A stretch of DNA of 64,000 nt from Zygnema cylindricum (Eukaryota; Streptophyta; Zygnematophyceae; Zygnematales; Zygnemataceae). The position numbers were made by a program, and so were the translations under genes. The stretch covers positions 1-64,000 of the forward strand of contig JBBHKE010001743.1 in NCBI GenBank assembly GCA_037447655.1, written 5' to 3'. Positions 5,123-55,224 of the stretch are shown here, piece by piece (positions within the stretch are counted from its first letter, which is position 1; the number at the start of each line of letters is the position of its first letter). Below the pieces are notes generated by a model that worked only from the letters and a program-made list of their open reading frames with translations, made no database searches and was not told the origin of the DNA.

Positions 5123-6318
5123 TGTCATGCCGTAAGACATCAGCAGGTATTGTGATTATATCGTGTACTAATTGAAGTTTCGGTGACGTGACAGGTACAT
5201 ATCCGACAGTACAACTAGAGATTCGTATGGGACAAAGGTCGAAATATACTCTCGTACGGCACCATGGGAACACAATGTGAAATCAGCGTGGAACTAGACC
5301 ACGGTACGGCATCAAACGTCAGGAATTCAAACGGCTACAAACCTGACAGGTGTTTGAAGTCATGAACCCTTGGAGGTTCATGCATCATTTTTGCTTAGCT
5401 TAGGGAGGGTTTTTATCCTCGAGGTGTAGATGTAAGGCAGTCCGAGGCGGCCACGCAGCGGTCGTCTCTTGAAACTGGCAGCGTTTTAACATAGAAACCT
5501 GCCTGTTCATAGACATGTAGGAATTAGTGTTGCCGTACGGATTAGTGAAAGCATAGGATAAATGCCATTTGGCGAGATAGTAACTTTTGCAAATTAAGTA
5601 CGGGAATCCAACATTGGAAGGTTGTCGTTTTCTGACAAGTATTATTTTCGGGATTTGTTGAACTCTATCGTTAGGGTTTCACCTAAATATTTAGTGACAG
5701 GCTAGTTTTTGAGTTAGGGTTTTTTCCTTTCCCAGAGCCATAGTTTCATGCTAGTAATTGTCTTTGAGCTTCTCCTTCTCTTTGTACTAAGACCTTACCT
5801 AATCTACCGGCGCAAGCCAACCTGCAAGGTTTCCCTCGAGACTGTCTAGACTGTCTTCTACATGCTGTGGTTGTTGAATTGCGTCTGTGGACTGGGTGTT
5901 TCTTGCTGTCAGAGCGCTGACTTTGCAGTCTAACTCCAGTCCTGTTTGGCTTTGTGGGAATACCGGCTATCTCGGCTCCTTAGTCCTGTTACGGAAGGGT
6001 TCTTGTCTGATGGTTGGACTCCTGTAGGGAATATTAAAAGACTTCAGAGCCTAGTGGCTACTGTCGCAGATGTGAATTCCATCCTTACTTACCTGATCTT
6101 GTTTTGTCTTTTATTTCCTTGCTAAGTCCATGTGTTCGGAATAATTTGTTTCTTTCCGGGCCTATTCATTTATTATTTCTTGCAGTATATATGCTTTGTC
6201 CTCCGATTGTGGTCACAAATACTGTGCATATGTAATGGTCATTCATTTTCTGGTGTTTGTCGGCGACCCACGCGGGATGTGATGCATGCCATTCACGGTT
6301 GTACTGTCACGCACGACA
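5123..6318 (+). repeat. left LTR of the gypsy element
   Basis: About 1.2 kb, matching 13355-14566 over its whole length by eye. Starts TGTCATGCCGTAAGAC and ends GTCACGCACGACA. The bases after its end (atacaaataattgtc) do not look like a tRNA primer-binding site, so the junction with the internal region may be rearranged. Confidence 0.88.
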
Positions 6319-6553
6319 ATACAAATAATTGTCTAGCGCTCATTAAACAAAGAACTTACAAAATGAGATACATGTAAAATTCTTTTTTTTTACATGAATA
6401 GAATAGTACAGATACAAACTCATTAACGATTTTAAAGATTTTTCAAATCGTTCAATGCGTTACTTAATTATAATTCCCGCGTTGTAATCGTGCGTAAAAT
6501 GTGGTTTGAACAATTACGGTATTATACAACCGAGAATATCCGCCAGCTCTCTT
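6319..6553. other. AT-rich remnant after the left LTR
   Basis: No coding signal. Its right end 'gctctctt' (6546-6553) is the left target-site duplication of the hAT-type element that follows. Confidence 0.45.
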
Positions 6554-7301
6554 CAGAGGTCGCAAACGGTCAACCCCAACCGTGACCGACCGTTAACCGA
6601 CCGCCCGCGCCGGATTTGGAACGGATTCGGTTGCCAAATTTTGGGGGTCGGGCGGTTACGGTCGGTTGATTCACCAGGAAAAAAAAAACGGTCGGTCAAC
6701 CAAAAAACCAAAATAAATGAAAATTTTGTACTGTCCCTATAATCCAACATTCTTGTACTTTGTACTCTTTCGTATCGTGGAAGTACGTGACATATTAATT
6801 AGTGTCGCAAATCTTACATGGTATTGTAGTAACGCTATTCATTTCGTAAATCTTAGGGAACGCGACAAAGCGTCGCAAATCTGACACGTTAGTACACTAT
6901 TCATTTCGCAAATCTTAGGGAACGCGACAAAGTGTCGCAAATCTGACAAGGTAGTACACTATTCATTTCGCAAATCATGGGGAATGCGACAAAGCGTTGC
7001 AAATTTGACACAGTAGTAACATTATTCATTTCGCAAATCTTAGGGAACGCGACAAATCATAATTATTGGCTTATTCATACGTCGTACATTGGTTAATTTT
7101 GTACTTTTTCGGTTACGGGCGGGCACGGTTAGTCGCGAGAAATCGAGATTCGGTTAATTTTTATTTTCGTAAACGCCGGTCAGTTGACGGTTAACAATTT
7201 TGGAGCGTGACATAACCCGGTCGGGCGTCGGTTACTCAGATTTTGAAAAAAAAAATACGGTCGGTTTCGGTTATGTAAAATTTTGACTTTTGCGACCTCT
7301 G
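6554..7301. mobile_element. non-autonomous hAT-type DNA transposon
   Basis: A 748-bp element with terminal inverted repeats CAGAGGTCGCAAA and TTTGCGACCTCTG, flanked on both sides by the perfect 8-bp duplication GCTCTCTT (6546-6553 and 7302-7309). An 8-bp duplication and a CAGAGG-type end are hAT hallmarks. There is no transposase ORF. The ends continue as GGTCGG/ACCGACCG-rich subterminal sequence. The middle (about 6840-7030) has about three direct repeats of roughly 62 bp containing 'caaatcttagggaacgcgac'. It inserted inside the LTR element's internal region and is therefore younger than it. Confidence 0.85.
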
Positions 7302-7402
7302 GCTCTCTTCTATTTACGCAGTGCCGATTCGGCAGGAATATATTGCTTCTTCAAGACACAAATTTACACAAATTTTAAATTTAATTTAATTTTAATACAG
7401 TA

Positions 7403-7619
7403 CACCGTGAATCGCTATTAGTGTTAAATGTTTTTTTCGTCTCTTAAAACATATTTTTTCCGTACACAATTTTCCCGATTGTGGATCGGACGGATGCGAT
7501 GTGAGTAAGATTCTCAGTTTCCTATTAATGGTCTCAAACTGAAAATCGGACAAGTGTGTACGGAGAAAATATGTTTTAAGTGGCGAAAAAACTATCAGCA
7601 TTAATAGCGATACACGGTG
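7403..7619. mobile_element. CACCGTG-family MITE
   Basis: Starts CACCGTGAATCGCTATTAG after TA and ends in its inverted form at CACGGTG; the right flank is CA instead of TA. Length 217 bp. The internal phrases 'aagattctcag' and 'tacggagaaaatatgtttta' are shared with the other family copies. TA flanks suggest a Tc1/mariner-type origin. Confidence 0.75.
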
Positions 7620-8107
7620 CAGTCATTTGTAGCGCCACGGCGGTATGCCACGACATACCCTTTTTAATGTCGCGGATCATAGTTGGACAACCAGACAAAT
7701 ATGCCGCGTCGGTGGTACGGAGAGTTTGCCGCGTCAGAGTGGTCCTCCAGAGTCCTGTCTGCTAAATCGCAGCCGTCCTCTGATACAAATCTGCCGGCGT
7801 AGCCGTCCGTAGCCATTCCGTAAAATCCGGATGCCGCCGCTGCCGTCCGTTCAAATCACCCTTTCCTGGAAATGGACAGGCGTCGTCAATTCCGCCAAGG
7901 TTTACACTTAACAGGAACCTTCGTAGGTCCTGAAAAGGTTTGGGATACGACAAATATTTTTGGGGTTCGTTACAAGGTACGTAAAGTACGAACGTTCTTG
8001 TACTCTCGCTACAGTACACGTGTAGCACTAAATATCTCCCTCGGTTAAACCTACGATTCAGAAAAAAATTACAAAATGTCCGTAATCCTTTTCTCAAAAG
8101 TATAGTA
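7620..8107. other. gene-free segment between MITEs
   Basis: GC-richer than its surroundings, with several 'gccgtccgt' phrases. The longest open frame is a 141-residue minus-strand ORF with no recognisable motif. I looked here for the missing N-terminal methyltransferase motif I and did not find it. Confidence 0.4.
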
Positions 8108-8323
8108 CACCGTGCATCGCTATTAATGTTAATAAAATTTTCTCCACTGAAAACATCTTTCTCCGTACACATTTGTCCAATTTCCAATTTAAGACCGCCA
8201 ATCGAAAGCTGAGAATCTCACCTTTCAATCGCAGCCGTCAGAGCCACAATCCGACATGTGTGTACGGAGAAAATATGTTTTAAGAGACCAAAAACACATT
8301 AACCCTAATAGCGATGCACGGTG
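8108..8323. mobile_element. CACCGTG-family MITE
   Basis: A 216-bp copy bounded by CACCGTGCATCGCTATTA and its inverse ending CACGGTG, with TA on both sides. The right flank reads TACTGTA. It shares the 'gtgtacggagaaaatatgtt' block with the copy at 7403. Confidence 0.8.
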
Positions 8324-8468
8324 TACTGTACTTTCAGTCATACGAAAAAATTTACGTAAAATTTTAGGCTCAACCGCTCAATGAACCGCTAGACCGCGAA
8401 TCGTAATTAGAGTAATGAAAAAATTAGAGTCCAAAAACTAAAAAAAAGAATTAGATTAATGAACGCTA

Positions 8469-8586
8469 CACCTTGAATCGTTATTAGCGTATAGAAATTA
8501 TTAGTGTAAAGAAAAAATTAGCATCATTCATTCTAATTTAGTGCCAGGAGACGTGGCAGATTATGGTCCACGTCCTTAAATAGTGT
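8469..8586. mobile_element. diverged MITE fragment at the methyltransferase 5' end
   Basis: Starts CACCTTGAATCGTTATTAGCG. Near 8545-8575 it contains 'acgtggcagattatggtcca', which recurs inverted at about 61,975-62,000 next to another family member. The right boundary is uncertain; coding similarity to methyltransferases starts at about 8588. The insertion seems to have replaced the 5' part of the gene. Confidence 0.5.
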
Positions 8587-8587
8587 A

Positions 8588-9787
8588 ATTTATATTGACC
8601 CTTTGGCCAGACGCGCTCAGTTGCACCACTGTCAAGTCTTGCACGAACAATATCCTCATACCTTACCTCAGTCTGCTTTTCACGATATGCATTCGGCGTT
8701 GCCACAGGATATCCGGCTAATAGGAAATCATCATTTAATGGAATTGGAACCAATTGAACTCCTCTTTGCCGGATGGGAATGTCAGGGTATGTCTAGGGCC
8801 GAGAAAGGTTTAGGTCTCGCAGATCCACGTACTAAGTTATTTTTCAAGGTGGTGCGTCTTATCCACTTCTTCCAAAAACTGAACCGTCCTTTTAGATACA
8901 TCTTAGAGAACGTCGCAGCTTATAATGACCCCCGACCTACGGTTCTCGCTGATTATAAACGCATTGAATCATTAATTGGACCACCACTGATCATTGATGC
9001 CGCACGCCACGGTTCGCTTGCCCACCGAGTTCGTTCCAAGTGGACTAACCTAGTGGACATGGGTCGGCTCCGAGAGGCTAACCTCGCTGTCCGACCACCT
9101 AACCTTTCCATTCAGGATGCACTTCTTCCATTTCATAAAGTCCAGACATGTATACTGACAGACTATCCTCCAGCATTTGGTCTTAACATCCCGGGCCAGA
9201 CACTACGTGCACTGCCTACACTAGTTGCATATCCACACTCTCACGCATACTCACATAATGGACCGGGCATGCTTAAGAATACTCATACAGGCAGTTTAGA
9301 AGAACCTACTGCCACAGAACGAGAACATATTTTACATTTCATCTCAGGCACCACTGCTACTCCGGGACTCACCGAGAGGCAGCGCTGCACCTTACTTGGT
9401 CGTGTCATGGATCCCCAATCACTGTCATTTGTCTTAGGCATGGGGTTCGCAGCTGGTCGATACGCACAGAACCATCCGTCTCAATCAGCTGGGGGGGGGC
9501 ATACACCATTTAAACACACAGCTTCCAAGTCCTCACCTTCTCTTCGGGGTACAATATTTCACCTTGCTCTTTTTCCTTTTCCCGCTAAGTCTGACACAGA
9601 TCACACTATTTATGATTTTTTGAAACCTAGTCACATGAGTTGGTCTCTCCCAGCATACACGGCCGCTCGATCTCAGGTACCGGTACGGGCATCACCACAC
9701 TGGACAGCTGCATTTCTGTCTAGAAGTTGGCATCACCCAGTAGATTGTTTGCATCAGCTTCTTGTCGAGTATGAGATGAACAACTAG
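8588..9787 (+). pseudogene. DNMT3-like cytosine-C5 DNA methyltransferase, 5'-truncated
   Basis: C5-methyltransferases transfer methyl from S-adenosylmethionine to cytosine in DNA. The frame is open from 8537 to the stop at 9785-9787 with no clear ATG at its start. Visible motifs: a YIDPLARRA-like motif II region (8591 on); a motif IV region with FAGWECQGMS, catalytic-type Cys codon at 8780-8782; LFFKVVRLI; motif VI ENV at 8906-8914; a motif VIII-like AHRVRSKWTNL; a target-recognition-like KVQTCILT; and a motif IX/X part, ERQRCTLLGR then LGMGFAAGRY. The spacing and motif VIII wording resemble DNMT3/DRM types more than DNMT1. Motif I (the SAM-binding FxGxG part) is missing because MITE sequence lies directly upstream, and the Pro before the catalytic Cys is Glu here. 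It sits just before the reverse transcriptase in another frame. About 100 residues after motif X match nothing I know. Function in this copy is unlikely. Confidence 0.8.
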
Positions 9788-9801
9788 CACTTGCACAAGC
9801 C

Positions 9802-11580
9802 ATGGAAGCCATGACCATTAACACGCCTGAGAAACCGACATGGAATTTCGGAACTGGACTAACAAAAATTGAACACGAACTGTTAGATGAAGTCATAAAC
9901 CGAAACGTAGACGCATTTGCTTTCGCCATGAAAGACTTAGGTCAACACACCACTTACAAAATGTCTATTGACTTGGAAGATGATAGACCTATATTTAAGC
10001 CCAAGCATCGTCTATCCAAAACCGAATGGGAATCTCTAGACAAACGATGCGCAGAGTTAGAAGAGGCAAATCTGATTTATAGGTCCGATTCCACTTTCGC
10101 GGCACCCACCGTCATGCCTCGTAAAAAAGACGCGGAGGGGAATTTTACAGAACGTCGCATGTGTGGGGACTATCGAGAACTGAATTCACGTACAATCCAA
10201 GATCGACATTAAATGCCGTTGGCCGAGGACATTTTTGATCACGTGGGCGGAGCTAAATATTTTACCATCCTAGATCTGCGACATGGATTTAATCAAATCG
10301 AAATAGAGGAAAAAGATCGACAAAAAAGTGCATTTTGGGGTAGTGACGGACGTTGGGAATGGGCGGTTATGCCTTTTGGACTCAAAAATGCACCGGCAGT
10401 ATTCTAGAAAGTCATGGACTCAGTCTTGGGGGGGTCTAAGTTTGCTCGTTGCTATATTGACGATCTAATCATCGCTTCAGCCTCTATAGAGGAACATGCG
10501 GTGCATATAGAGTGGGTGTTGAAGGAATTAAAAAAAGTAGGACTTAAATGTCATCCTACCAAATGTACCTTTGGGGGCGAAGGGGTTCTATACCTTGGGC
10601 ATTTATCTCATCTGAGGGAATTACTCCGCTAGAAGTCAAAGTGGAAGCAATTAGTAAACTACGGGCCCCAACTGATTTGACTAGCCTGCGTGCATTTCTG
10701 GGGTTAGCCAATTATTACCGACGGTTTGTTCCTAGTTTTAGCACACTTGCATCTCCATTAAATGAACTCTTGAAGAAATCAGTCCCGTTCACGTGGGGAC
10801 CCTCTCAGATCGAGGCATTTCAGGGATTAAAGGACGCACTGTCCACCGCTCCTATTCTTCGTCCCCCAAATCATAAGTTGCCATTTTGCCTACAGACGGA
10901 CTTTGGTAAGCCCGGTATTGCAGCCATCCTAACTCAGCGTGAACTCACAGGTGAGGAATATGTGGTGGCTTATGCCAGTCGGAGCAACAATCAAGCGGAG
11001 TCAAATTACAGTAGTTATGAGGGGGAGTGCCTTGCCGCAGTTTGGGGTATTGTGCATTTCCGACATTATCTCTATGGCAAGCCTTCCACCGCTCCTATTC
11101 TTCGTCCCCCAAATCATAAGTTGCCATTTTGCCTACAGACGGACTTTGGTAAGCCCGGTATTGCAGCCATCCTAACTGAGCGTGAACTCACAGGTGAGGA
11201 ATATCTGGTGGCTTATGCCAGTCGGAGCAACAATCAAGCGGAGTCAAATTACAATAGTTATAAGGGGGAGTGCCTTGCCGCAGTTTGGGGTATTGTGCAT
11301 TTCCGACATTATCTCTATGGCAAGCCTTTTACCCTTCTTACTGACTATCAACCACTGCATTGGCTCATGACCAATGACAAGCGATCCGGCAAATTAGCCT
11401 GTTGGGCTCTTATTTTGCAGGAATATGACATGGAAATAATCCATCGACCCGGGCTCCTCAGTTTGGATGCCGACGGCCTCTCAAGGAACCCTTTGCCCCA
11501 CTCCAATGATAATGGTGTGCGACAAGATTTTGATGACGGATCAGTTGCCTCCTTATCAACCGGAGCACATCTGATTTACA
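9802..11580 (+). pseudogene. gypsy reverse transcriptase and RNase H, disrupted
   Basis: Encodes the polymerase and RNase H that copy element RNA into DNA. RT landmarks in order: ERRMCGDYRELN, FTILDLRHGFNQI, MPFGLKNAPAVF and the catalytic box YIDD (near 10455). The thumb/connection has LRAFLGLANYYRRFVP. The RNase H part has LQTDFGKPGIAAIL, YSSYEGECLAAVWG and HRPGLLSLDADGLSR, where the first catalytic Asp would lie in TDF. Breaks: TAA at 10210-10212, TAG at 10405-10407 (from the FQKVMD-like motif), and a frame change between about 10600 and 10630. An 81-codon in-frame duplication lies in RNase H. The first Met codon is 15 nt after the methyltransferase stop, in a different frame. Confidence 0.88.
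10842..11327 (+). repeat. 243-bp in-frame tandem duplication in RNase H
   Basis: The segment starting 'tccaccgctcctattcttcg' at 10842 starts again at 11085, a 243-bp (81-codon) period. The two units differ by about four visible bases: Q/E, V/L, S/N and E/K changes. It repeats the first RNase H Asp region and the EGE box, so the encoded domain would be malformed. Confidence 0.9.
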
Positions 11581-11583
11581 GTT

Positions 11584-13049
11584 TTGGAGCACCTACAAGA
11601 CACAAAACCGAACACGATTCCATGGGAGGACAGTGCTTTAATTCTTTTTCTATCTACACAGTCTTTCCGAGCAGGCACCCTACCAATGGAAGAGGAGCGT
11701 GTTCGTAAGAGGGCCCAAAGTTACTTATGGATGGGGGGCTCACTTATTCGTTTTCTCTCAGAAGGAAGTCATCGGCATGTCCCTAGGCCGCAGAAACGAC
11801 TATCACTTATCAACCAAATTCATACCGACCTTGGAAACTATGGCACCAAACGAACTTTGAGTTTGGTACAGGCACGGTATTGGTGGTCCGGCATGCAGGC
11901 TGATGTGGCGGCTGTGTTGCAGGAATGTAGCACATGTGACCGGCTACGAACCTCGTTTTCTAACTGGCTAACCACCCTTCAACTCTTGCCTATTCGAGGG
12001 CTCTTCTACAAATGGTCGTGTGACTTGGCAGGTCCCTTTCCAATTTCTCGAAGGGGCAAGCAGTACATTATGATTATGATCGAAAATTTCAGCAAATGGG
12101 TGGAAGTTGTGGCCCTCTCGTAAAAACCTGCCAAACTCACCACAACAACTTTCAAATAGCATGTGCTTCTCCGATACGGAGCCCCGCAGAAGTACTTACC
12201 GACCAAGGAACCGAGTTCCGCGGCAAATTTCAGGAGATGCTGGACGAGGCGTTAATCGATCACCGGCGGACGAGCCGAGATCATCCTCAAGCAGACGGTT
12301 TGGCAGAGAGAGCTGTACAAACCTTTAAACGTGCTTTGCGTAAACATTGCTTGGAAAAACAAATTACGATGTGGGATGAATCATTGGGATATATTGTCAT
12401 GGGTTATCGCATGTCTGTACAGGCCAGCATGGCAAATTTCAGCCCCTATTATGTGTTGTTTGGTCGAAAACCACTATTAGGTAGGAATGTACAGAAAGCC
12501 GCGAGCTTACCTCTACCTCTTATGTTTAATTCTCTGTTTTTGGAAGAACTAACTAACCGAGCGTTGCTTTTTGCTAGAGAAATGCCCATGGCTTTTGAAA
12601 ACCTGCAGATTGCCCAACATCGCGACTCCTTACGGTTTGCGACGACTCGCAGTGGCAGCTACCGGCCACAACAAAAACCCTTTCGGGTGGGGGATTACGT
12701 TTATTTGCAACGGCAAACTTTTGACACACTCGACACGGATGTTTCGGCTCACATTCTGAGGATAACAAAAATCGACGCCAATGCATTATTAAGCTTACAA
12801 GGGGCCGACACGCGAACTTTGCGGGAGCAATCGAAAAATTGTGCCCCTTGCTATCTACCTGACCTTTCCCACAACATGGACCCGTGGGGGAAGCCGATTA
12901 CCGAGGCCACTGAGTGCCAATTATGCCGGCGAACTGATGGAGAAACAACAATGCTCCTCTGTGACTATTGCAATCTGAGATTCCATATGGAGTGTCAAGT
13001 TCCACCTCTGCACACTATCCCGGCTGGATAGTGGTTTTGCGACGGGTGT
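11584..13049 (+). pseudogene. gypsy integrase with C-terminal PHD finger, disrupted
   Basis: Integrase inserts element DNA into the host genome. N-terminal zinc-binding part: HTDLGNYGTKRTL then CSTCDR; the usual second His (GH.G) is Asn here. Core acidic residues: Asp in WSCDLAGPF, Asp in LTDQGTEF and Glu in GLAERAVQTFKR, i.e. a D,D,E triad. A stop TAA (12121-12123) and a frame change break the core between the two Asp residues. The C-terminal part has PFRVGDYVYLQR. After it comes a PHD-type zinc finger (12915-13049): CQLC, CDYC, H in RFHMEC, then WFCDGC, matching Cys4-His-Cys3 spacing. An in-frame TAG at 13029-13031 precedes the conserved Trp. I saw no chromodomain. The PHD finger could bind histone tails and guide integration; that is inference. 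Confidence 0.83.
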
Positions 13050-13097
13050 CGCGATCTACCAGCTGTCTTAACCAGCTCCTCCGCAGGCTAAAAAGCT

Positions 13098-13352
13098 GGA
13101 GGGTGGGGAATTCCATCCTTACTTACCTGATCTTGTTTTGTCTTTTATTTCCTTGCTAAGTCCATGTGTTCGGAATAATTTGTTTCTTTCCGGGCCTATT
13201 CATTTATTATTTCTTGCAGTATATATGCTTTGTCCTCCGATTGTGGTCACAAATACTGTGCATATGTAATGGTCATTCATTTTCTGGTGTTTGTCGGCGA
13301 CCCACGCGGGATGTGATGCATGCCATTCACGGTTGTACTGTCATGCACGACA
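13098..13352 (+). repeat. polypurine-like tract followed by an extra 3' LTR fragment
   Basis: A purine run (GGAGGGTGGGGAA, about 13098-13109) resembling a polypurine tract is followed by 245 bp (13108-13352) that match the last 245 bp of the left LTR (6074-6318), ending GCACGACA. Two bases later the complete right LTR starts. The fragment may be a truncated original 3' LTR. Confidence 0.75.
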
Positions 13353-13354
13353 GC

Positions 13355-14566
13355 TGTCATGCCGTAAGACGTCAGCAGGTATTGTGATTATATCGTGTAC
13401 TAATTGAAGTGTCAGTGACGTGACAGGTACATATCCGAGAGTACAACTAGAGATTGGTATGGGACAAAGGTCGAAATATACTCTCGTACGGCACCACAGG
13501 AACACAATGTGAAAACAACGTGGAACTGGACCACGGTACGGCATCAGTTGTCAGGAATTCAAACGGCTACAAACCTGACAGGTGTATGAAGTCATGAACC
13601 CTTGGGGGTTCATGCATCATTTTTGCTTAGCTTAGGGAGGGTTTTTATCCTTGGGGTGTAGATGTAAGGCAGTACGAGGCGGCCACGCAGCGGTCGTCTC
13701 TTGAAACTGGCAGCGTTTTAACATAGAAACCTGTCTGTTCATAGACATGTAGGAATTAGTGTTGCCGTACGGATCAGTGAAAGCAAAGGATAAATGCCAC
13801 TTGGCGAGATAGAAACTTTTGCAAATTAAGTACGGGAATCCAACATTGGAAGGTTGTCGTTTTCGGACAAGCATTATTCTCGGGATTTGTCAAACTGTAT
13901 CGTTAGGGTTTCACCTAAATATTTAGTGACAAGCTAGTTTTTGAGTTAGGGTTTTTTCCTTTCCCAGAGCCATAGTTTCATGTTAGTAATTGTCTCTGAG
14001 CATCTCCTTGTCTTTGTACTAAGACCTTACCTAATCTACCGGCGCAAGCCAACCTGCAAGGTTTCCCTCCAGACTGTCTTCTACGTGCTGTGGTTGTTGA
14101 ATTGCGTCTGTGGACTGGGTGTTTCTTGCTGTCAGAGCGCTGACTTTGCAGTCTAGCTCTAGTCCTGTCTGGCTTTGTGGGAATACCGGCTTTCTTGGCT
14201 TTGTGGGAATACCGGCTATCTCGGCTCCTTAGTCCAGTTACGGAAGGGTTCTTGTCTGATTGGTTGGACTCTTGTAAGGAATATTAAAAGACTTCAGAGC
14301 CTAGTGGCTACTGTCGCAAATGAATTCCATCCTTAGTTACTTGATCTTGTTTTGTCTTTTATTTCCTTGCTAAGTCCATGTGTTCGGAATAATTTGTTTC
14401 TTTCCGGGCCTATTCATTTATTATTTCTTGCAGTATATATGCTTTGTCCTCCGATTGTGGTCACAAATACTGTGCATATGTAATGGTCATTCATTTTCTG
14501 GTGTTTGTCGGCGACCCACGCGGGATGTGATGCATGCCATTCACGGTTGTCTTGTCATGCACGACA
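13355..14566 (+). repeat. right LTR of the gypsy element
   Basis: A full-length copy of the LTR at 5123-6318, starting TGTCATGCCG and ending GCACGACA. It has a short internal duplication around 14170-14215 ('ggctttgtgggaataccggc' occurs twice). The bases after its end pass directly into the polypyrimidine tract. Confidence 0.88.
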
Positions 14567-16605
14567 TCCCGTCTCTCCCTTCTCATCTCCCTTCTTCCCC
14601 TCTCACTCTCCTCTCTTAGTCTCCCTTTTCTCCCTTCTTCCCCTCCCTCTCCCTTCTCTCCCTTCTCCTCTCCCTATCCCTTCTGTCACTTCTCCTCTCC
14701 CTTCTTCCCCTCTCCCTTTACCTTTGCTCCCTTCTCTCCCCCTCTCCCTTCTTCCCCTCTTCCACTCCTTTCTCACCCCTCTCCCTCTCCCTTCTCCCCC
14801 TTGTCTCACTCCCCCTTCGCTCACTCTCACTTCTCCCCCCTTTGCTCACTCTCACTTCTCCCCCTTCGATCACTCTCCCTATATCTGCCTTCGCTCACTC
14901 TCCCGACTGTCCCTTCTCCCCATCCTCTCACTCTCCCCCTCTTCTCCCTCTCCCTTCTGTCCTTTCACCTCTCCCTACTTCCCCTCTGACTCTCCCTTCT
15001 TTTCTTCTCCCTTTCCTTCTTCCCCTCTCATTCTCCCTTCTCTCCCTCCTTTCTCTTCTTCCCCTCTCCCTCAACCTTCTCTCTCTTCTCCTCTCACTTA
15101 TCTCCCTTCTTCCCTCTCACTCTCCCTTCTCTCCCGTCTCTCCCACTCCCTTCTCTCCCTTCTCCTCTCCTTTTTTCCCCTCTCCCTCTCCCTTTTTTCC
15201 CTTCTCCTCTCCCTTTTTCTCCTCTTCCTCTCCCTTCTCTCCCAACTATCCCTTCTTTCCCTTTCCCTCTTTCTTCTCTCCCTTCTACTCTCCCTTATTA
15301 CCCTCTCACTCTCCCTTCTCTTCCTTCTCCTCTCCTTTCTTCCCTTTTCCCTCTCCCTCTTTCACCTCTCACTCTCCCTTTTCACCCTTCTCTCCCTCTC
15401 CCTTCTTCATCTTCTCTCACTCTCCCTTCGCTCACTCTCCCTTCTCCCCTTTTGCTTACTCTCCCTTCTCGCCCTTCGCTCACTCTCCCTTCTCCCCCAT
15501 TGCTCACTCTCACGTCTCTCCCTTTTCCCCCTTCTCTCACTCTCCCTTCACCCCCCTCCTCTCCCTCTCCCTTCTTTCCCTTCTCTTCTCCCTTTTTCTT
15601 CTCTCACTCTCCCTTCTCTCCCTTTTCCTCTCCTTTCTTCCCCTCTCCCTCCCACTTATTCCCTCTCCCTTCTTTCCCCCTCCCTCTCCCTTCTCTCCTC
15701 TCTCCCGTCTTTCCCTCTCCCTCTCCCTTCTCTCCCTCTCCCTCCTCTCCCTTCTTTCCCTCTCCCTCTCCCTTCTCTCCCTCTCACTTCTTCCCCCCTC
15801 CCTCTCCCTCCTCTCCCTTCTTCCCCCCCCGCTTCTTCGACTTTCCCTCTCCCTTCTTCCCCTCTCTCTCCCTTCTTCCCGTCTCACTCTCCCTTCTCTC
15901 CCTTCTCCTCTCCCTTCTTCCCCTTTCCCTCTCCCTCTTCACCTCTCACTCTCCCTTTTCACCCTTCTCTCCCTCTCTCTTCTTCATCTTCTCTCACTCT
16001 CCCTTCGCTCACTCTCCCTTCTCCCCCTTATCTCACTCTCCCTTCTCCCCCATTTCTCACTCTCACGTCTCTCCCTTTTTCCCCTCCTCTCCCTCTCCCT
16101 TCTTTCTCTTCTCTCCCTTTTTCTCTCACTCTCCCTTCTCTCCCTCCCTTCTTCCCCCCTCCCTCTCCCTTCTCTCCCTTCTTTCCCTCCCCCTTCTTCA
16201 ACTCTCCCTCGCCCTTCTTCTCCTTTCCCTCCCTTCTCCTCTCCCTTCTTCCCCTCTCCCTTCTCTCCCTCTCCCTTCTCCTTTCCCTCCCTTCTCCTTT
16301 CCCTTCTTCCCCTCTCTCTTCTCTCCCTTCCCCTCTCCCTTCTCTCCGTCTCCCTTCTCCTTTCCCTCCCTTCTCTCCCTTCTCCCCTCCCTTCTTCCCC
16401 TCTCCTTCTCTCCCTTCTACTCTTCCCCTTCTCTCCCTATCCCTCTTCCTCTCCCTTCTCTACCTTCTCCTCTCCTTGCTTCCCTCTCCCTCTCCCTTCT
16501 CTCCCTTCTCTCCCTCTTCCCCTCCCTTTTCTCCCTTCTCCTTTCCCTTCACCTCTCCCTCCCCTCTCCCTTCCCCTCTACCTCTCCCTTCTCTCCCTCT
16601 TCCTC
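14567..16605. repeat. 2-kb polypyrimidine tract, TCTCCCTTC type
   Basis: Almost every base is C or T, in imperfect words such as CTCTCCCTTCT and CCCTTCTTCCCC. Higher-order repetition is visible: the block with 'cttcgctcactctcccttc' near 15,420-15,500 returns near 15,990-16,060. Long Ser/Leu/Pro ORFs across it are composition artefacts. It begins exactly at the LTR end. Confidence 0.93.
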
Positions 16606-17393
16606 ATTTGTATCAACACCATATTGTTTGATGGCGCCTGACAAAATTACATATGCAAAAGATGAACCCATGAATCCACAATTTTACATTTTTTTCAAAA
16701 ACCCAAATAAAAACACTTCAATGAAGTCATTTTATCAAAAACCCAAAAAATAATTGTTCAATAAAAAAGTCATTTCACAACTAACAATTCCTCAAGTTTC
16801 CACAAATTGGAAGTCACTCATGTTACAAAATGTTTATAGAAATATTTTTTCACAAAAGATGTTTGCTTTTTTTAATCCACAAAAAAAAACTGTACAAAAA
16901 GTTGCCTCGATTTCTATTTATGCCTTTTTTTTCTCAAAAACCTAAAACTTCTCAAAACTGTCCTAAAAAAAACTGACAAACTTGTCACCTGTTTCATAGA
17001 CTTCTCGTCTTTTTCTAACCTCCAAACAAAAGTATACACCAAAAAGAGTGGAAAAAAAAACTTGTATACAAAAAAAACTGTCCTATCCGTACAGTGAAAA
17101 ACCCGAGATTCTAGGAACAAAAAAGAAGCCCCATACTGTTGAGGAACAAAAATGTACAAAAATGATGATTTTCAACAACTCTCTCTCGACTCTCTCTCGC
17201 TCTCTCTCTATCCCTCTCCCTCTCTCTTCTCTCTCTTGCTCCCTCTATCCCTCTCTCCCTCTCTCCTCTCTCTCTCGCTCTCCCTTTATCCCTCTCTTCT
17301 CCTCTCTCCCCCTCTCTCGTTTCTCCTCTCTCCCCCTCTCTTGTCTCTCTTCCCTCTTTCCTTATCCCTCTCTCACTCCCGTCAAAAAAAAAA
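16606..17393. other. AT-rich spacer with a CT-rich block
   Basis: 16606-17165 is A/T-rich with phrases such as 'caaaaaccca' and 'aaaactgtc'. 17170-17385 is CTCTCT/CCCTCT microsatellite-like. This is downstream of the minus-strand bicupin gene and may include its 3' UTR. No separate gene seen. Confidence 0.5.
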
Positions 17394-32025: not shown

Positions 32026-32047
32026 AGGACCTTACTACTGTACTGTA

Positions 32048-32263
32048 CACCGTGAATCGCTATTAGCGTTTATGTTTTTTTTTCCAATCAAAACGTCTTT
32101 TCGCCGTACACACATGTCGGATCTTGGATCTGACGGTTTCAATTGAAAGGTAAGATTCTCAGCTTCCGATTGGCGGTCTTAAATTGAAAATCGGACAGGA
32201 GTGCACGGAGAAAAGATGTTTTAAGTGGTTAAAATATTATTAACACTAATAGCGATACACGGT
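32048..32263. mobile_element. CACCGTG-family MITE
   Basis: A 216-bp copy: CACCGTGAATCGCTATTAGC at the left after TACTGTA, and the inverse ending 'agcgatacacggt' followed by ATA at the right. The internal 'agattctcagcttccgattgg' block is shared with other copies. Confidence 0.8.
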
Positions 32264-36630: not shown

Positions 36631-39600
36631 TCACAATGGGTTTTTCTCAAACCGTTGATTGTATATTCTCCGTTTCATCCTTCCTACTCCTCCAATATTG
36701 GAATAACTTCCTAATTTGTCATATCCTCTCCCTTTTCCCGCCCCATAACCGTATCCCACTCCTATCCCACAACCGGCTCCGAGGCCAAGGCCGGCTTGGA
36801 AACCAGGAAAACCCCAACCAAAACCCGCACCTGAAAAGACAAAATAACAAGAAATAGTGATAATGAGAAGAGAGGAATCAGAAATTCATGAAAAATGGGT
36901 TGAAAATGTTTAAAAATGGGTTGAAAATGGTTAAAAATGGGTTAAAAGTGGATAAGAAACGGGTAAAATGCAAAGTATTGAGACTAAGACCGACCCAGAA
37001 AATGGGAAATCCGAACCATAACCCGAACTGAAACCCGCACTGAAAGGAAAAAATAACAAGAAATAGTGATAACAAGAAGAGAGAAATGGAAAATGCATGA
37101 AGAAAGTGTTAAAAAATGGTTAAAATGGATAAGAAATGGGCAAAAAGCTGTAACTGAGTCCAGGAAAACCCCAACCAAAAACCGCACCTAAGTATAAAAA
37201 TCAAAGCATAAGATAAGAGATAAGAAAGGTACGGAAATTGGAACATATATAGAGGAGAGAGGAGAGAGAGAGAGGGAGGGAGGGAGAGGGAGAGAGGGAG
37301 GGAGGGAGGGAGGGAGAGGAGAGAGGGAAGGAGGGAGGGAGAGGAGAGTGAGGGAGAGAGGGAGGGAGGGAGGGGGGGAGGGAGGGAGGGGGGGAGGGAG
37401 GGAGGGGGGGGGGAGGGAGGGAGGGAGGGAGGGAGGGAGGGAGGGAGGGAGGGAGGGAGGGAGGGAGGGAGGGAGGGAGGGAGGGAGGGAGGGAGGGAGG
37501 GAGGGAGGGAGGGAGGGAGGGAGGGAGGGAGGGAGGGAGGGAGGGAGGGAGGGAGGGAGGGAGGGAGGGAGGGAGGGAGGGAGGGAGGGAGGGAGGGAGG
37601 GAGGGAGGGAGGGAGGGAGGGAGGGAGGGAGGGAGGGAGGGAGGGAGGGAGGGAGGGAGGGAGGGAGGGAGGGAGGGAGGGAGGGAGGGAGGGAGGGAGG
37701 GAGGGAGGGAGGGAGGGAGGGAGGGAGGGAGGGAGGGAGGGAGGGAGGGAGGGAGGGAGGGAGGGAGGGAGGGAGGGAGGGAGGGAGGGAGGGAGGGAGG
37801 GAGGGAGGGAGGGAGGGAGGGAGGGAGGGAGGGAGGGAGGGAGGGAGGGAGGGAGGGAGGGAGGGAGGGAGGGAGGGGGAGGGAGAGGAGAGGGAGGGGG
37901 AGGGAGAGGAGAGAGAGGGAGAGAGAGGGACAGAGTGGGAGAGAGCAAGAGGGACAGTGGGAGAGAGAGAGGAGGGAGAGGGGGGAGAGAGAGGGAGAGA
38001 GAGAGACAGTGGGAGAAAGAGAGGAGGGAGAGGGGGGAGAGAGAGAGGGAGAGAGAGGGACAGAGTGGGAGAGAGCGAGAGGGACATGGGAGAGAGAGAG
38101 GAGGGAGAGGGGGGAGAGAGGGGAGAGAGAGAGGGGATGGATGGAGGGAAGGAAGGGAGAGGGCGGGAGAGAGGGAGAGAGAGAGAAAAGCTTCCACAGC
38201 AAATAGAAAATTTTAATAAAGCTATCTCAGCATTTACTATGGGAAAAAAAGATAGTGAGACTTTAGGGTTTTCCATGGTTTTTTTGGGTTTTCCTACAGT
38301 AAAGAAAAGTAAATAAAGCACGCTCGTACTTATTACGGAAAAAATAATGAATAAATCACATAAAAATAATAATTATAATAATTATAATAATAATCAAATA
38401 CTTACCATATTTCACACATCTTTGCCCATTTCTAAATTAAAACCAAAATAAAACTTGTCAATATTTTAATTTCCATAAAAAAAACTTATCAACATTAGCC
38501 CTTTTTAAACCCTTTTTTCCTCCCTTTTTCCCCAAAATTACAATGGAAAACCCGGAAATCTACACTGGGGTTGTTATCAATGAAATGGGTTTATAGGGAT
38601 TTTTCGGATAATTTGGGGGTTTTTAGGGGATTTTAAGGTTCCTCAGAGGTTTTTAGTCTTTTTATATTTTTTAGGGTTTTTAGGGTTTGTAGGATTTTTT
38701 AGGGTATTTTAAGGGCTTTAGGATTTCAGGATTTTTTGGGTTTTTTTATGTTGGAGGCAAATGTGTATGGAATGAATGTGTCTCAATAATTTTGCACTCG
38801 TTTTAACATCATTTTAATATCATTTATAAATCATTTTTTCATAATTTTTTCATCATTTTTCATTATTTTTTCATCATTTTTTAATTATTTTTGCTGTTCG
38901 GGAAGAATGAAAAAGAGCATTGGCACCAAATGACGGATTTGATGTTTCATGCACTTAAAAAAAAAAAATGAAAATAAAAAATATATATATTACATGCATT
39001 TGGAACATTTATAAACCACAACATAAAACTACAAACACCAGGAGATGCTTTCCCTAAAGAATACAAGACAAAAAAAATCAGAAAATAGACCTAAAAATGT
39101 TTCTTTGTACCAAAATGTCTCTACAGAGTGACAAAAACCTCAAAAAAAAAGAAAAAAAACCTCAAAAAAAAAGTTAAAAAAAAAAAAAAAAAAAAAATTG
39201 TTGAAATTTACATGATTTACAATTAATATCTACTGTTTTTGTCAGAAACGTCTAATTTCGCTTGCAAGGGAAAGGATGTTCATAAACTGTTACCGGTCAA
39301 TGTAAAAATAACTGTTTTGGACTGTCTCGTTTTATAAGTAAGAAGTTTCCCTCTGTCATATTATAAAATTAAAAAAATAGAAAAATCATAATAGTAATAA
39401 AATAAGTAAAAAAATAAATTAAAAAAAAAAGTTTTGAACAATTGAGTTCTAGTTCTCTCCCTTTCTATACGAAATCCAAAATATAATCGACTTCTTAAGA
39501 TTCTTACAAAAATATAAAAACTCTAACAGTATTAGAACTCAAAGAAAAAAAAAAACTCTAAGAATCTAACTTCCAATAGAGGAAAAGCGGAAAAGGCGAT

Positions 39601-41475: not shown

Positions 41476-44066
41476 ATGGCAAATCGAGGAAGTCAAGGCC
41501 TCCTTCGACTCGCAAATATTGCAAGGTCTCAGCTGGTAGAGTATTATGGTAAGGAACTGTATTCATTTTTCCAATTTATCAGCGGTTTATCCCATCATAA
41601 ATTTATTTATTTTGTGTCCTTATACAGCAATGAAAGGGTGTTGTACAACATAATGCAGCTGAGCCTATGTTGAGATGTTAAAAAATTGTCTGCCGATATG
41701 TATTTATCAATTGTAACTGTAGTTAACTCTCAGGCCTCGATCAATTGTTTTTACGTCTTTCCTAAGTTTTTTAGGCAATGCTGAAGAGGATATCACTTGC
41801 AGGGACCAATAGCAAGGTGTAAATTTCATCTCTTATGTCGAAGGAGTTTCGTTTTTTGGTAGAGCTTTGAGAAATGTTTGTTTGAGATTACTTACGAGTT
41901 TCAGAGTTTGATGTTCTTTGGCAGCTAAGCAAGAACTTCATTTCCGTTAGGTTGCTGGGGTTGCAAGTTTGGACGCAAAAAACAATCGTTGTTTTATTTA
42001 CAGTTTGTTAACAATTCTAACAGTCGTAGTAATATTTACAACTTGTAAATAATCATAGTAATATTTACAGTTTGTTAACAGTCGCAGTATTATTCACAAC
42101 TGGTTAACCACTGAAGTACTATTTACAATCTGTTAACAATTTTAGTGTTTTTCCAACTCGTTAGCAGTCGTAGTAATATTTACTATTAATTAACCATCGT
42201 TGTATTATTTACAATTTGTTAACAATCGTAGCATTATTTACAATTTGATAACACTTGTAGTAATATTTACTATTAATTAACAATCGTTGTATTATTTAAA
42301 ATTTGATAACAATTGTAGTAATATTCACAATTTGTTTACAATCATTAATATATACAATATGTTAACCACCATAGTATTATCTACAATTTGTTGGCAATCG
42401 TATCTTGAATGGCATTTCTTATGAATGGTTTTGGCACAAGTTTATTGTGTTTGAGTGAGAGAGTTTGTCTTTTTGTCCATGCCTTTTGCTGCTGCTGTGG
42501 ATAAACCGCGAGAGGAAAGGAATTCCAAGTTTTGCTTCTTCTTATGCCTCCTAATGAGTTTTTTTCGAAATTTATCTTCCTTTTAATCGAATGCAAAGTG
42601 TATCTTCGTTGTAAACTTGAAGCTAAAAATAGGAACTAACGTTGGCATCTTGGTCTTAAAAATTTCCTTCTGCTGTCTGGCTGACTTATAACCTGGAATT
42701 TCAGAATGTCAGAGTCGATAGCTCCTTCTTGTGTCAGTGAAAACAGCTCTGTTACACTATGTTTAACTGAAAGCATATTATTATTTGTTGAGACACGAGG
42801 CCTTACTGGATGTGAAGTTCAGTTGTAAGCTTACTGGAAATGGTAGATCTAGGTGCTTTCATGAGTGGACGCGTCAGATATTCCCATTGGTTTTTTTTTT
42901 AAATAGGAATACTTACCGTGGACGTATCTTTATTTTTATTCGCTTAAATAGAGCGCTAGGTCAGTTCACATTTGGCAGACAAAAACACAAATCAGCATTT
43001 TAGGTCACCAGGTAAGGCTCCCAACTCATAAGAATATAACAAGTTATTTGAGATAAAGAATACTGGAATAGCTGTAAAGAAAAGTCAAAGGATTTGTAGT
43101 CCTTGTCACTAGACTTCTATTAAGCGCTTATGATGATGACATATTTATGATTCACTATTTGTACACCAGTTAACACGTGCGAACTCTGTCCTTTATCCGA
43201 CTAGTCAACTTCTAACATTTATTTTTGTCCTCATGGATTGCCCTACAACCGCAGGTCTTCAAGGAAGCTATTTTCATTCTCTCCTATCTCGGGACCAGAT
43301 CTTATGCCCAATGACTTCAAGCCCTTGTCTTCAAAACCAGTCATTTGATCCTTCTTTATCTAGAAGGCCCACCGTATCTCTCACACCCTGTTTACCGCCA
43401 GGTCGCAATCTATACAGTAAAACTCTTCAAGAGGTACCCGATTTATCAACCGTCCATGTAAGCCGTCCATCCATGTCTTCCTTTGCTGCCATTCCAAAGG
43501 AGTATTTCTTCTATTTCCAATCTCGTCGAAATCTGCACAGCAGTGTCTGTCCGTCGAGTGGTAAGATAAAGGAATCCTCAGTATCTGAATCAGAGGATGA
43601 TTTATTATTGCGGTCCACCTCTTCCTCTGAAAGACAATCGGCCGCCGATTCTTACGACAATGTGCGAGGATTGAAGGAAAAGTTGCCTGAAACTCCAGGG
43701 AATCTGTCTCTTGGAGAGAGTAACAGCGACAGTAACAGTAACAGTTTGACAGGGAACGAAAACGGTGTTGAATCGCAAAGGAAACAGTCTAGCAGGCATG
43801 ATTTGGCCCTTTTGTTTACATGTACTATTTGTGATACTCGCTCGGCAAAGACTATGAGTCGAGCAACTTATGAAACTGGAGTTGTTATAGTGAGGTGCCC
43901 GAGTTGCTCCAGTTTGCACCTTATAGCAGATAGAAAGGGCTGGTTTGGTGATCCTGGTAGTGTTGAAGACTTTCTCGCGAGCAAAGGGGTTGGGGTAAGG
44001 AAAGGTGGTGAAGAAACTTACGAATTTACTGTAGAAGATCTCACTGGATGGTCTGAGAAGAAATGA
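41476..44066 (+). CDS. DNL/Zim17-type zinc-finger protein (Hsp70 escort, HEP), copy A
   Basis: Exons 41476-41548 and 43255-44066, phase-1 GT-AG intron, 885 bp, 294 residues. Exon 1 encodes a presequence-like start (MANRGSQGLLRLANIARSQ), rich in Arg/Leu with no acidic residue, as organelle presequences are. Exon 2 has a long Ser-rich linker and then the zinc finger: CTIC at about 214-217, CPSC at about 239-242, followed by LHLIADRKGWFGDPGSVEDF. Family members bind zinc with these four Cys and keep organellar Hsp70 soluble; plant chloroplast/mitochondrial members share the GWFGEPGS-type wording. An in-frame ATG at 43233 lies before the acceptor, so it is probably intronic. AATAAA at 44112-44117 may be the poly(A) signal. 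Bases from 41587 on are duplicated at 54822-61535. Confidence 0.8.
41995..42400. repeat. TAATATTTACAATTTGTTAACAATCG minisatellite in zinc-finger gene intron 1
   Basis: About 13-14 degenerate units of 28-31 bp with the core 'atttacaatttgttaacaat'. The same array is at 55225-55575 in copy B with somewhat fewer units. Confidence 0.85.
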
Positions 44067-45229
44067 AGGGAAAGCAAGCAATTTGCCTCGTCGATATGCT
44101 TACATTTCATGAATAAAAGGTGAGACTGCCCTTAGATCGATACTTTGTTTCGTGGTTGTTGATTGTGTCATGTTATTTTTTTTTGTTATTTTTTTGGTCA
44201 TTATGCTCACGGTGTGAGTATTTCATAACTTTTAACCAAAACCAGAAAAGCAAAAGTTTTGCTTTCATTGTTCTAAAGTTTCTACACTAATACCAGTCTG
44301 GTGAAAACATTTCATCTTGTTTGAAGTTGTAATTAATTCTCTCTCGACCGTTGCTTTCACCATATAAAAAGTTTAGATTATGAGAAACAATTGCATTCAG
44401 CAAAAAATTTAGGTCAAAACCTGCAAAATTTAAGGGAAAAACAGGTTGCGGAGCTTTGAATATGCACAAAACATCTTTTTGAAGATCTACAGCACAAACA
44501 CATTGTCATTGACTATTCGCTGACTTGTTACATTCCTCCAATGGCCTTTATCATCAAATGTATACATGATGTATTGGATCCTAATAGGACAAAGCATTTT
44601 TCGATCCGATATTCTTTGCATTCCTATGGTATGGTAAATGCTTTTGTTTTTAGTGATTGAAGTAAGTATTTTGTCAATAAAATTTTGAAGGCATTCTTGA
44701 CATTCGATTCAGATTTAGTGTTGTCAAGCCTTCAGCAAATCCTTCTCTTATAATATCTTATCGTAATATTATCTTATTGCGAAAAATTATTTTAGTTCTA
44801 GTTGCCACTGTTCAGTTTAATTGGTAATCATTTTTAGATACTTTCTTACATATTTCTTTAAATAGTTTTAGGAAAAGATCCTTACAAACCTATGCTTACA
44901 ATGACGAAAACCACACAGGAGTGGTTGGCGGCAAGGAAAGAAAGAAAGGTAGAGACAGGAAAATATGTTTGGCTTTGCATCTCCGAGCTTTAAGTGTTTG
45001 ACTGTCGATTTTTTTTAACAATTCGTGCTTTGATAATGCATTGGTAGATATGATTCACGTTTTTATTCTGTAAACTTGTGAAGTTCCTGCTTCTCGCATC
45101 TCCTTCCACGTGTCTTGTGTCTTTTTGGTAATTTCATGTTTAGTTTATTTTCATGCACAATTGAATGTGCATGTACCAAGGCGGCTTTTGTGCTACGGTG
45201 GTAATAACCGCTGAATAGAAAGTCAACTA
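44067..45229. other. 3' flank of the zinc-finger gene with one candidate exon
   Basis: 44872-44948 is bounded by 'ttttag' and 'gtagag'. In copy B (58217-58300) one frame reads YAYNDETTQEWLEARKERKK; copy A has one extra base that shifts this frame. Similar boundaries in both copies suggest an old exon of an unidentified gene. Otherwise non-coding. Confidence 0.35.
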
Positions 45230-45445
45230 CACTGCTAATCGTTACTCGTGTCAAAGTTTTTTCACCACTTTAAACATTTTTTCTTTGTGCACACTTGTCG
45301 GATTGTCAATCCTATGGTTGCTATTGGAAGGCAAGATTCTCACTTTCTTATTGGCGGCCTCTGATTGACAATTCAACAAGTGTGCACGGAGCAAAGATGT
45401 TTTAACAGGCGAAAAAAACTTTAACTCTAATAACGATGAGCGGTG
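45230..45445. mobile_element. CACCGTG-family MITE, diverged
   Basis: Starts CACTGCTAATCGTTACTCG, ends 'gatgagcggtg', TA on both sides, 216 bp. In copy B (from about 58,436) only the left end remains and the rest is deleted. Confidence 0.7.
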
Positions 45446-45986
45446 TAGTCATAATTACAACAATCTTGAACATTGGAAGATGGAAAGACAGTAAGACAGT
45501 TAGCTAACAACTGCAGCAACGAAACAGTTAAAAATTTGCATGTTACCTTTTCTGCCATTTTTAGTAGAAGGCAGATTGTGAGTTTTTAATGAAGCTTATT
45601 GTTTTCATAAAATTATTTGTTAATAGAATGCATGGATGTCAGTCACAAAAACCGTTTTTTTTTTCAGTATCTGGTTGGATCATCTTGGTAACGAGTCCAT
45701 CAATTGCTCCCTTGGTTCTTTTGAACTGATGGTAATAATTTTGATTTCTTAGCCAAAGAACAAAAGTCTCTATTGCAACGGAGGTTCCTTGTAAGCGAAA
45801 TAACAGAAAACATCAAACAGTACGGATTACATTACGCAGCCACTGTAAATGAGAATATGTTACTTCTTGTATTACACCAAAAACTGCCAATTCAAAATAG
45901 ATTGCAATCGATTCTGTTTTTTTTTAAATTATCCTTTGATAGCTCGTGAATTTCTTTCCAAATTCGTCGTAAACGTTACAATGCTA
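45446..45986. other. intergenic part of the duplication with a candidate exon
   Basis: 45754-45845 starts after 'ttcttag' and in one frame reads LLQRRFLVSEITENIKQYGL, followed by a GTAAAT donor. The same peptide in copy B (58674 on) is LLQRRFLGSEITENMKQCGS. Conservation of the frame across the two copies hints at a real exon; I do not recognise it. Confidence 0.35.
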
Positions 45987-46525
45987 CACCGCGAATCGTT
46001 ATTAGTGTCAAAGTCACTAATTTGGGTTCTTAAAATTTTGATTTTTTTTTTCAAATAGGATACATGATTTTAATTTTTCCTTGACGTTAATTTAGGTTCC
46101 GTACAAAATAAAGTAAAGCCCGAAAGTACAATAAAATATAAATAGTGTGGTGTACGGTCGATGTCAGACCGTACATAACTGTACCTTTCCAAGTGAAAAT
46201 TTACAAAAAATGAATTAAATCAGACGCGCACGCATAGGAATGTGCGCTCAAAAAAACGGGAGTAGTCTGACACGTAAATTAGTATAGCATGTACGGATCT
46301 TTTAAATTCGCGACGACGTACGATTTCTAATATTTTGTCGGATGCATATATTAATGTATATAATCGTACGGCGGATATTCCATTTTTGCTGTTCGCAAAT
46401 TAGCATAAACGCCGAAATTAGAATACACCTTTTTTCTGAAGATTTTCAAATTCTTAATTAGCATCAATTACGGTAAATTTTCTTCAACACTATTTAAACT
46501 TTGACACTAATAACGATTCGCGGTG
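45987..46525. mobile_element. long CACCGTG-family element present only in copy A
   Basis: A 539-bp element with ends CACCGCGAATCGTTATTAG and 'taacgattcgcggtg', TA flanks. At the matching place in copy B (about 58,910) it is absent, so it probably inserted after the segmental duplication. Confidence 0.75.
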
Positions 46526-46750
46526 TAGTTCGCCATCTTGCTGAGTTGGACAAAGGAAATTCGCATGGTCGTCAACCCAGAAAAGAAAAAAATTGCCGAG
46601 CAGGGCACCTCAAAAAGGTACAAAAAGTACAAAATTAGTGACAAAACTGTTTTTTGCGTACCATTTGTAGTTTTGTACCTTTTTCGATAGCAATCCACTT
46701 TAGTTTTCCCGCTTGCATGCGGAATTCCGTGTTTTCCGCCGTCTACGCTA

Positions 46751-46953
46751 CACCTTGAATCGCTGTTAGCGTCAAGTTTTTTTTTTCGCCACATAAAAGA
46801 TTTTTCTCTATGCACACGTGTCACTTTCCGTCCGGAGGCCGCCACTCGGAAGGTACAGTAACATTTCTACCCTTACATCGCAACCGTCGATGAAATTTTG
46901 TGACACGTGAAAGATGTTTTACGCAGCGAAAAAAAGAATGACGATTCACAGTG
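46751..46953. mobile_element. CACCGTG-family MITE shared by both duplication copies
   Basis: 203 bp, starts CACCTTGAATCGCTGTTAGC after TA and ends 'gattcacagtg' before TA. The matching element in copy B is at 59456-59687, so the insertion predates the duplication. Confidence 0.7.
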
Positions 46954-54755: not shown

Positions 54756-55224
54756 TTTTTGAATCCTTTCTGCATTTTTGTTAACTAGCTCCGGACTCTC
54801 AATTGATGTCAATGTTAACTATTATCCCATCATAAATTTATTTATTTTGTGTCCTTATACAGCAATGAAAGGGTGTTGTACAACATAATGCAGCTGAGCC
54901 TATGTTGAGATGTTAAAAAATTGTCTGCCGATATGTATTTATCAATTGTAACTGTAGTTAACTCTCAGGCCTCGATCAATTGTTTTTACGTCTTTCCTAA
55001 GTTTTTTAGGCAATGCTGAAGAGAATATCACTTGAAGGGACCAATAACAAGGTGTAAATTTCATCTCTTGTGTCGAAGGAGTTTCGTTTTCTGGTAGAGC
55101 TTTGGGAAATGTTTGTTTGAAATTACTTACGAGTTTCAGAGTTTGATGTTCTTTGGCAGCTAAGCAAGGACTTCATTTCCGTTAGGTTGCTGGAGTCGCA
55201 AGTTTGGACGGAAAAAACAATTGT

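Follow-up and report, generated by a model that had tools for sequence, protein, structure and literature searches.

We report that positions 8592-9787 on the forward strand of the window, by which we mean the whole 64,000-nucleotide stretch of Zygnema cylindricum DNA analysed here (a portion of contig C1307 in a 353-Mb assembly), are a DNMT3-type cytosine methyltransferase (DNMT) domain inside a Ty3/Gypsy polyprotein, just before the reverse transcriptase (RT). Taken jointly, the data make it probable that we have here a decayed copy, truncated at its 5' end, of an abundant Ty3/Gypsy family which carries a DNMT enzyme and integrates by a circle route.

The ORF scan of the window gave an uninterrupted frame at 8537-9787, with 416 aa between stops. 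Homology of this frame to the intact host copy begins at 8592, and 8476-8583 is part of a different repeat that has 81% identity with 62071-61965 in the window self-comparison. The frame matches the Pfam DNA_methylase family (E 7.4e-8, 32.6 bits against a cut-off of 22), and DNMT3A chains are its top sequence matches among solved structures in the PDB (E 8.3e-9). Its features are as follows.

8592..9787, + strand: DNMT3-like C5-methyltransferase domain, 5'-truncated, motif I missing, open frame (Pfam, PDB, homology to intact copy)
8771..8794, + strand: motif IV, GWECQGMS, with Glu in the place of Pro ahead of the catalytic-type Cys (sequence, host loci)
8906..8914, + strand: motif VI, ENV (sequence)
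9020..9034, + strand: motif VIII-like, AHRVR (sequence, PDB match)
9374..9403, + strand: motif X-like, ERQRCTLLGR (sequence, profile)

All four C5-methyltransferase landmarks that the initial annotation had pointed out (GWECQGMS, ENV, AHRVR, ERQRCTLLGR) were found, as was the truncation it described, the 5' end being lost at about 8592 and motif I absent. The RT that it placed beside the frame is directly downstream, but in a different frame and broken by stops. Both Pfam and profile scores keep the frame inside the C5-methyltransferases, and a chance open reading frame is ruled out, since Pfam, PDB and fold all concur.

The host genome contains at least 101 matches to the window protein (100 scored of 3637 first-look candidates), and nine of the 30 loci that were cut out have no stop within the match. 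One copy (C1344:85514-96154) is a single open frame of 2395 codons, in which Pfam, applied in two pieces, recognised DNMT, RT, RNase H, integrase and a complete PHD finger, together with a zinc knuckle and a protease as weak matches, both under the Pfam cut-off. The order along its polyprotein, a single open frame, is gag-protease-DNMT-RT-RNase H-integrase-PHD, gag and protease being assigned by the weak matches. The repeats of this copy, which we call A and B, follow the layout A1, coding, B1, gc, A2, GGG, B2; they are identical (A1/A2 at 927/927 bases, B1/B2 at 240/240), and TTGG flanks the copy on both sides as a 4-bp target duplication. Identical repeats and the target duplication indicate a very recent insertion with the DNMT domain intact. 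A second copy, on contig C449, has a DNMT 70% like that of the window, and its layout is the same, the repeats being older (89% for A, 96% for B); the full A-coding-B-A-B layout was examined in these two copies. Ty3/Gypsy elements are recognised by the order RT-RNase H-integrase with an rve core, and both are present here, while the identical long terminal repeats at each end of typical Ty3/Gypsy elements are absent, the layout being the split A-coding-B-A-B (C1344, C449).

A family of LTR-type retrotransposons with a DNMT3-like domain beside RT had been claimed from the window alone, and the intact C1344 copy and the many matches bear this out. The search for other genomic copies that link DNMT to an LTR/RT unit found DNMT, RT and repeats of the same family together in C1344. 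The window by itself, where the DNMT and RT frames differ, would also agree with an accidental association, in which a host DNMT3 gene or pseudogene landed by chance in or beside an ordinary retrotransposon. In C1344, however, DNMT and RT share a single open frame, the domain occurs in many copies and the same fusion is found in public sequences; the intact copy and the public relatives refute such an accident, to which we give practically no chance.

The remainder of the element in the window, and a related repeat upstream of it, comprise the following features.

5123..6318, + strand: solo-like A-B repeat (A at 5123-6073 and B at 6074-6318) bounded by TGTC...GACA, probably inserted separately (match to A2-B2)
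9775..10629, + strand: reverse transcriptase, stop-broken (RVT_1 at 10213-10404, 2.3e-10, and 10408-10629, 1.7e-10)
10548..11708, + strand: end of RT, then RNase H, in which 243 bp are duplicated in tandem, 10842-11084 / 11085-11327 (Pfam, self-comparison)
11575..13031, + strand: integrase, H2C2 zinc domain and weak rve core, frame broken (Pfam)
12915..13013, + strand: PHD finger at the integrase C-terminus, in-frame stop inside (PF00628, 9.7e-7; complete in the C1344 copy)
13098..13108, + strand: G-rich tract, putative polypurine primer site, immediately 5' of B1 (sequence)
13108..13352, + strand: repeat B1 (self-comparison)
13349..13358, + strand: B/gc/A joint, palindrome GACAGCTGTC (sequence)
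13355..14321, + strand: repeat A2 (self-comparison)
14318..14322, + strand: A2/B2 joint, hypervariable between copies (copy comparison)
14322..14566, + strand: repeat B2, the 3' end of the element (self-comparison, intact copy)

The LTR-like repeats at 5123-6318 and 13355-14566 share 93% identity, and the former aligns unbroken, end to end, with A2-B2 of the intact copy (L032 1982-3155, 91%). It is followed by unrelated DNA, whereas in the C1344 copy internal sequence comes immediately after A1. Since A and B stand here without internal element sequence behind them, 5123-6318 is probably a solo copy, and we read it as a solo repeat that probably arose by A1 x A2 recombination and represents a separate insertion; three of four bases match between its flanks (ATAG/ATAC). 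The DNMT frame does lie between the LTRs by position, as first described, but probably not by origin, the left repeat being the likely solo copy. Just 5' of the G-rich tract, three copies have an inverted repeat CCAGCT...AGCTGG (window 13072-13108; L032 1700-1760; L034, reverse strand), possibly a hairpin at the plus-strand primer.

Elsewhere in the window, MITE-like short inverted-repeat elements occur at 7396-7619, 8106-8330, 32040-32263 and 45268-45447; their ends resemble GTACACCGTG...CACGGTG and they are 75-84% alike. The stretches 41587-49448 and 54822-61533 have many common repeats at about 12-13 kb spacing, likely a tandem segmental duplication, and each contains a DNL zinc-finger frame (PF05180, 2e-23 and 5e-24). 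A piece of a cupin gene is present at 53057-53521 (PF00190, 3e-5), and long simple repeats at 14570-16640 (pyrimidine-rich, + strand) and 37200-38000 (GGGA/GGAA-type) produce long spurious open frames.

The two joints between the repeats differ in character. That between B and A is the perfect palindrome GACAGCTGTC in the window, C1344, C449, L038, L040, L045 and L058; the central gc is gt in L047 and L049, and the joint is more altered in L039 and L059. The A/B joint, by comparison, takes 19 different strings in 30 loci, against 7 to 15 in other 14-column blocks of the alignment. Its length is unequal in 83% of pairs, as against 0% in the two preceding 14-column blocks and 19% in the next block. 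In the pair table, which leaves out L040 because of its deletion across the joint, 16 of 17 pairs with 94-97% identity next to the joint have unlike joints; among pairs of at least 97% identity, three of eight have unlike joints and five the same one, which could mean that joints are in part inherited or that one form is favoured. L043 and L045, which lie on different contigs with different flanks, are identical over roughly 380 aligned positions beside the joint, yet their joints differ. The variants resemble trimming of the A end with a varying count of G before B, which fits end-joining of cDNA ends.

The split layout and the variable joint are features of the copies themselves, and for the order of the integration steps we infer the following. 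Reverse transcription would give a linear cDNA bounded on each side by B-gc-A; its ends would be joined imprecisely into a circle, leaving the variable A/B joint; and the integrase would cut the circle at the palindrome GACA-gc-TGTC and insert it with a 4-bp target duplication. A two-repeat circle cut at B/gc/A yields exactly the repeat order that is observed. Standard LTR retrotransposons are not known to integrate from an internal palindrome of an end-joined two-repeat circle. It could instead be that A-B-A-B came from ordinary LTR duplication or recombination in a plain LTR element, the A/B joint being just a mutable spot. Consistent with this, six of the 16 loci (among 30) in which both ends were recognised are A-B copies where no B could be recognised ahead of A, two of the six being unclear, and length also varies among 14 other blocks of the LTR alignment: it does so in under 20% of pairs in ten of them and in 35-73% in four, one of these at the alignment edge. 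The flanks of the six A-B copies match exactly in one (L044, GTCA), at two or three bases in three and at one base in two; exact four-base duplications were found in two cases only, C1344 and L044. Against a plain LTR element, however, the young C1344 copy and the divergent C449 subfamily have identical layouts, the start of B coincides with the end of the G-rich tract, and the two blocks 5' of the joint are constant in length. We therefore regard ordinary duplication or recombination as quite improbable and prefer integration from an end-joined circle.

As to the identity of the DNMT domain, a profile of nine relatives gave 90 bits to DNMT3A, 49 to DRM, 42 to HaeIII, 37 to DNMT2 and a non-significant 13 to DNMT1. 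When the domain of the intact copy was modelled with AlphaFold2 from 21 sequences (pLDDT 87.3, pTM 0.86), all 50 PDB fold matches listed, of 189 at E <= 0.001, came from DNMT3 entries. The motif order is unpermuted and DNMT3 is the best match among solved C5-methyltransferases. Animal DNMT3A/3B are thus the closest in both sequence and fold and have the same motif order; they differ in having PC where the element has EC, in an identity of about 19-22% in fold alignments, and in the ADD and PWWP domains, neither of which Pfam reported in the element polyprotein. A viral origin was considered and is not favoured, as the best viral model reached a TM of 0.58 by query length and the first five DNMT3 chains 0.64-0.65; a scan of IMG/VR with the first alignment gave 32 stretches that matched a pattern, none of them confirmed.

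The DNMT domain has been kept under purifying selection. Of the 45 pairs formed by ten host copies picked for full or nearly full DNMT frames, 17 had unsaturated dS, and their dN/dS was 0.096-0.369; in the remaining 28, dS was saturated and dN was 0.13 to 0.24. A PF00145 profile search of the host genome placed at least 123 loci above the cut-off (123 scored of 782), all at only 34-52 bits, and therefore host DNMT genes are indistinguishable in it from element copies. The methyltransferase load of this genome is high, and at least part of these PF00145 places are copies of the DNMT-element family.

The Glu that stands in the window for the usual Pro of motif IV, already remarked upon in the initial annotation, is confirmed, but it is not damage to this one copy. 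Of 30 host loci, a non-random sample chosen by similarity to the window, all 30 have Glu ahead of the catalytic-type Cys, 29 have the Cys itself and 25 the exact ECQ; decay as the source of the Glu is ruled out because all 30 loci share it. Motif VI reads ENV in 15 of the 30; several more, among them the intact C1344 copy, have ENI. The proposal to look in intact copies for motif I and PCQ had a divided outcome: intact copies do have motif I (DLFAGIGT) as well as ENV/ENI, but ECQ in place of the PCQ that many public relatives possess. Among 35 public proteins, of which P0034 and P0035 are distant and may fall outside the family, 15 of the 34 readable ones have Glu and 19 have Pro, one lacking the region. 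The Glu and Pro states require at least two changes on the DNMT tree, which has 33 rows (29 public proteins, three host copies and the window, six public rows being dropped as too short) and an unsure root because of long branches.

Most likely, the DNMT, released with RT, would act on the element's own cDNA, methylating its cytosines while reverse transcription proceeds or afterwards, and its substrate may also be an RNA:DNA hybrid or RNA. The PHD finger, judging from its position, would probably help the integrase to choose chromatin. Alternatively, a DNMT with Glu for Pro could be a non-catalytic DNA- or SAM-binding module, comparable to DNMT3L, that aids cDNA synthesis or integration. None of the 30 host loci retains the Pro before the catalytic Cys, nor do 15 of the 34 readable public relatives, and the main text of de Mendoza et al. 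(2018; PMC5890265) reports that the KnitGypsy-Dnmt3 domain of Klebsormidium gave no methylation in yeast, a result that its authors do not treat as decisive because human DNMT3B failed there as well. Yet a dead site would be expected to lose its Cys, which 29 of the 30 loci keep, the intact C1344 copy retains motif I (DLFAGIGT) and motif VI (ENV/ENI), and one clade of relatives retains PCQ. A non-catalytic module thus seems to us unlikely, though it deserves some weight, and an active methyltransferase is the reading we follow.

Traces of methylation in the copies are weak. In the window, the element parts have CpG observed/expected ratios of 0.75-0.88, as against 0.91-1.06 for three other stretches, and 6319-8587 reaches 1.65; the young C1344 copy has 0.73-0.91. 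With one copy, not an ancestor, as the reference, the excess of C-to-T/G-to-A changes at CpG exceeded 1 in 25 of the 28 copies, with a median of 1.65-fold and values from 0.91 to 3.12. This weak signal fits methylation of the copies by any agent, host methylation included.

The public relatives comprise two architectures. By domain positions, the DNMT is upstream of RT in P0005, P0007, P0013 and the host element, and between RNase H and integrase in P0015, P0016, P0017 and P0028. The latter four form one clade on the DNMT tree (100/100) with P0002, P0003 (labelled Chrzof1, which we take to be Chromochloris zofingiensis) and P0027; P0015, P0016 and P0028, the only members of this clade on the RT tree, also group there (100/98), with one non-DNMT outgroup. 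The two architectures may go back to independent captures of the domain or to one capture with shuffling afterwards. The ECQ motif is also present in P0030, whose label Mesvir1 presumably denotes Mesostigma viride. A PHD finger occurs in P0005, P0010, P0015, P0016, P0017, P0027 and P0028 as well as in the host element; Pfam found none in P0013, nor in P0007, which ends within the integrase. P0034 has SPCQ, scores only 54 bits and is possibly DIRS-like. P0019, filed as a Candidatus Obscuribacterales DNA methyltransferase, sits in the PCQ clade of element domains and is perhaps eukaryotic contamination of a metagenome bin.

DIRS elements use a tyrosine recombinase and make no target duplication; the host element, with its rve integrase and 4-bp duplication, is unlike them in both respects. 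Chromoviruses, the Gypsy elements with a chromodomain, carry this chromatin-reader-type domain at the integrase C-terminus, where the host element has a PHD finger instead. The capture of methyltransferases by retroelements in Klebsormidium and Symbiodinium, mentioned in the initial annotation, has been reported in the main text of PMC5890265, but the annotation's contrast with these cases as DNMT1-type was mistaken, for the Klebsormidium Gypsy and Symbiodinium DIRS elements are already of Dnmt3 type there. KnitGypsy-Dnmt3 of Klebsormidium nitens is described as having Gypsy domains, a Dnmt3-type domain in Pol, DIRS-like repeats and a DNMT under purifying selection (de Mendoza et al. 2018, PMC5890265, main text), and, compared by description, the host element is like it in all four. 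In Symbiodinium, Dnmt3-type domains are found in DIRS elements and an orphan type in LINEs (PMC5890265, main text); SymbioDIRS-Dnmt3, as described there, resembles the host element in its Dnmt3-type domain in a retrotransposon polyprotein and its split repeats, and differs in having a tyrosine recombinase and not a DDE integrase. Such elements are also mentioned in streptophytes and dinoflagellates, those with LTRs being called Copia, in PMC12344493. The terms 'PHD' and 'motif IV' are absent from the main text of PMC5890265 (figures and supplements aside), and our searches of open-access papers, likewise apart from figures and supplements, brought up no description of the conserved Glu, the PHD finger, a DNMT placed between RNase H and integrase, or the hypervariable A/B joint. 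The DNMT-bearing retrotransposon is therefore of a known though rare kind, that of KnitGypsy-Dnmt3, and the host element is a variant with several features that we have not found described.

In summary, we tentatively suggest, as a reading that may well not hold in full, a widespread and probably green-algal Gypsy clade with a fixed ECQ DNMT3-derived enzyme, perhaps retuned for cDNA or an RNA:DNA hybrid, a PHD reader, and DDE integration at the internal palindrome of an end-joined two-repeat cDNA circle. It is puzzling that a transposon should carry the type of enzyme used for silencing transposons. The family offers near-identical intact copies, and PCQ relatives as a natural control, for work on the function of the enzyme, and the A/B joint may mark single insertion events, which would make the integration route directly testable.
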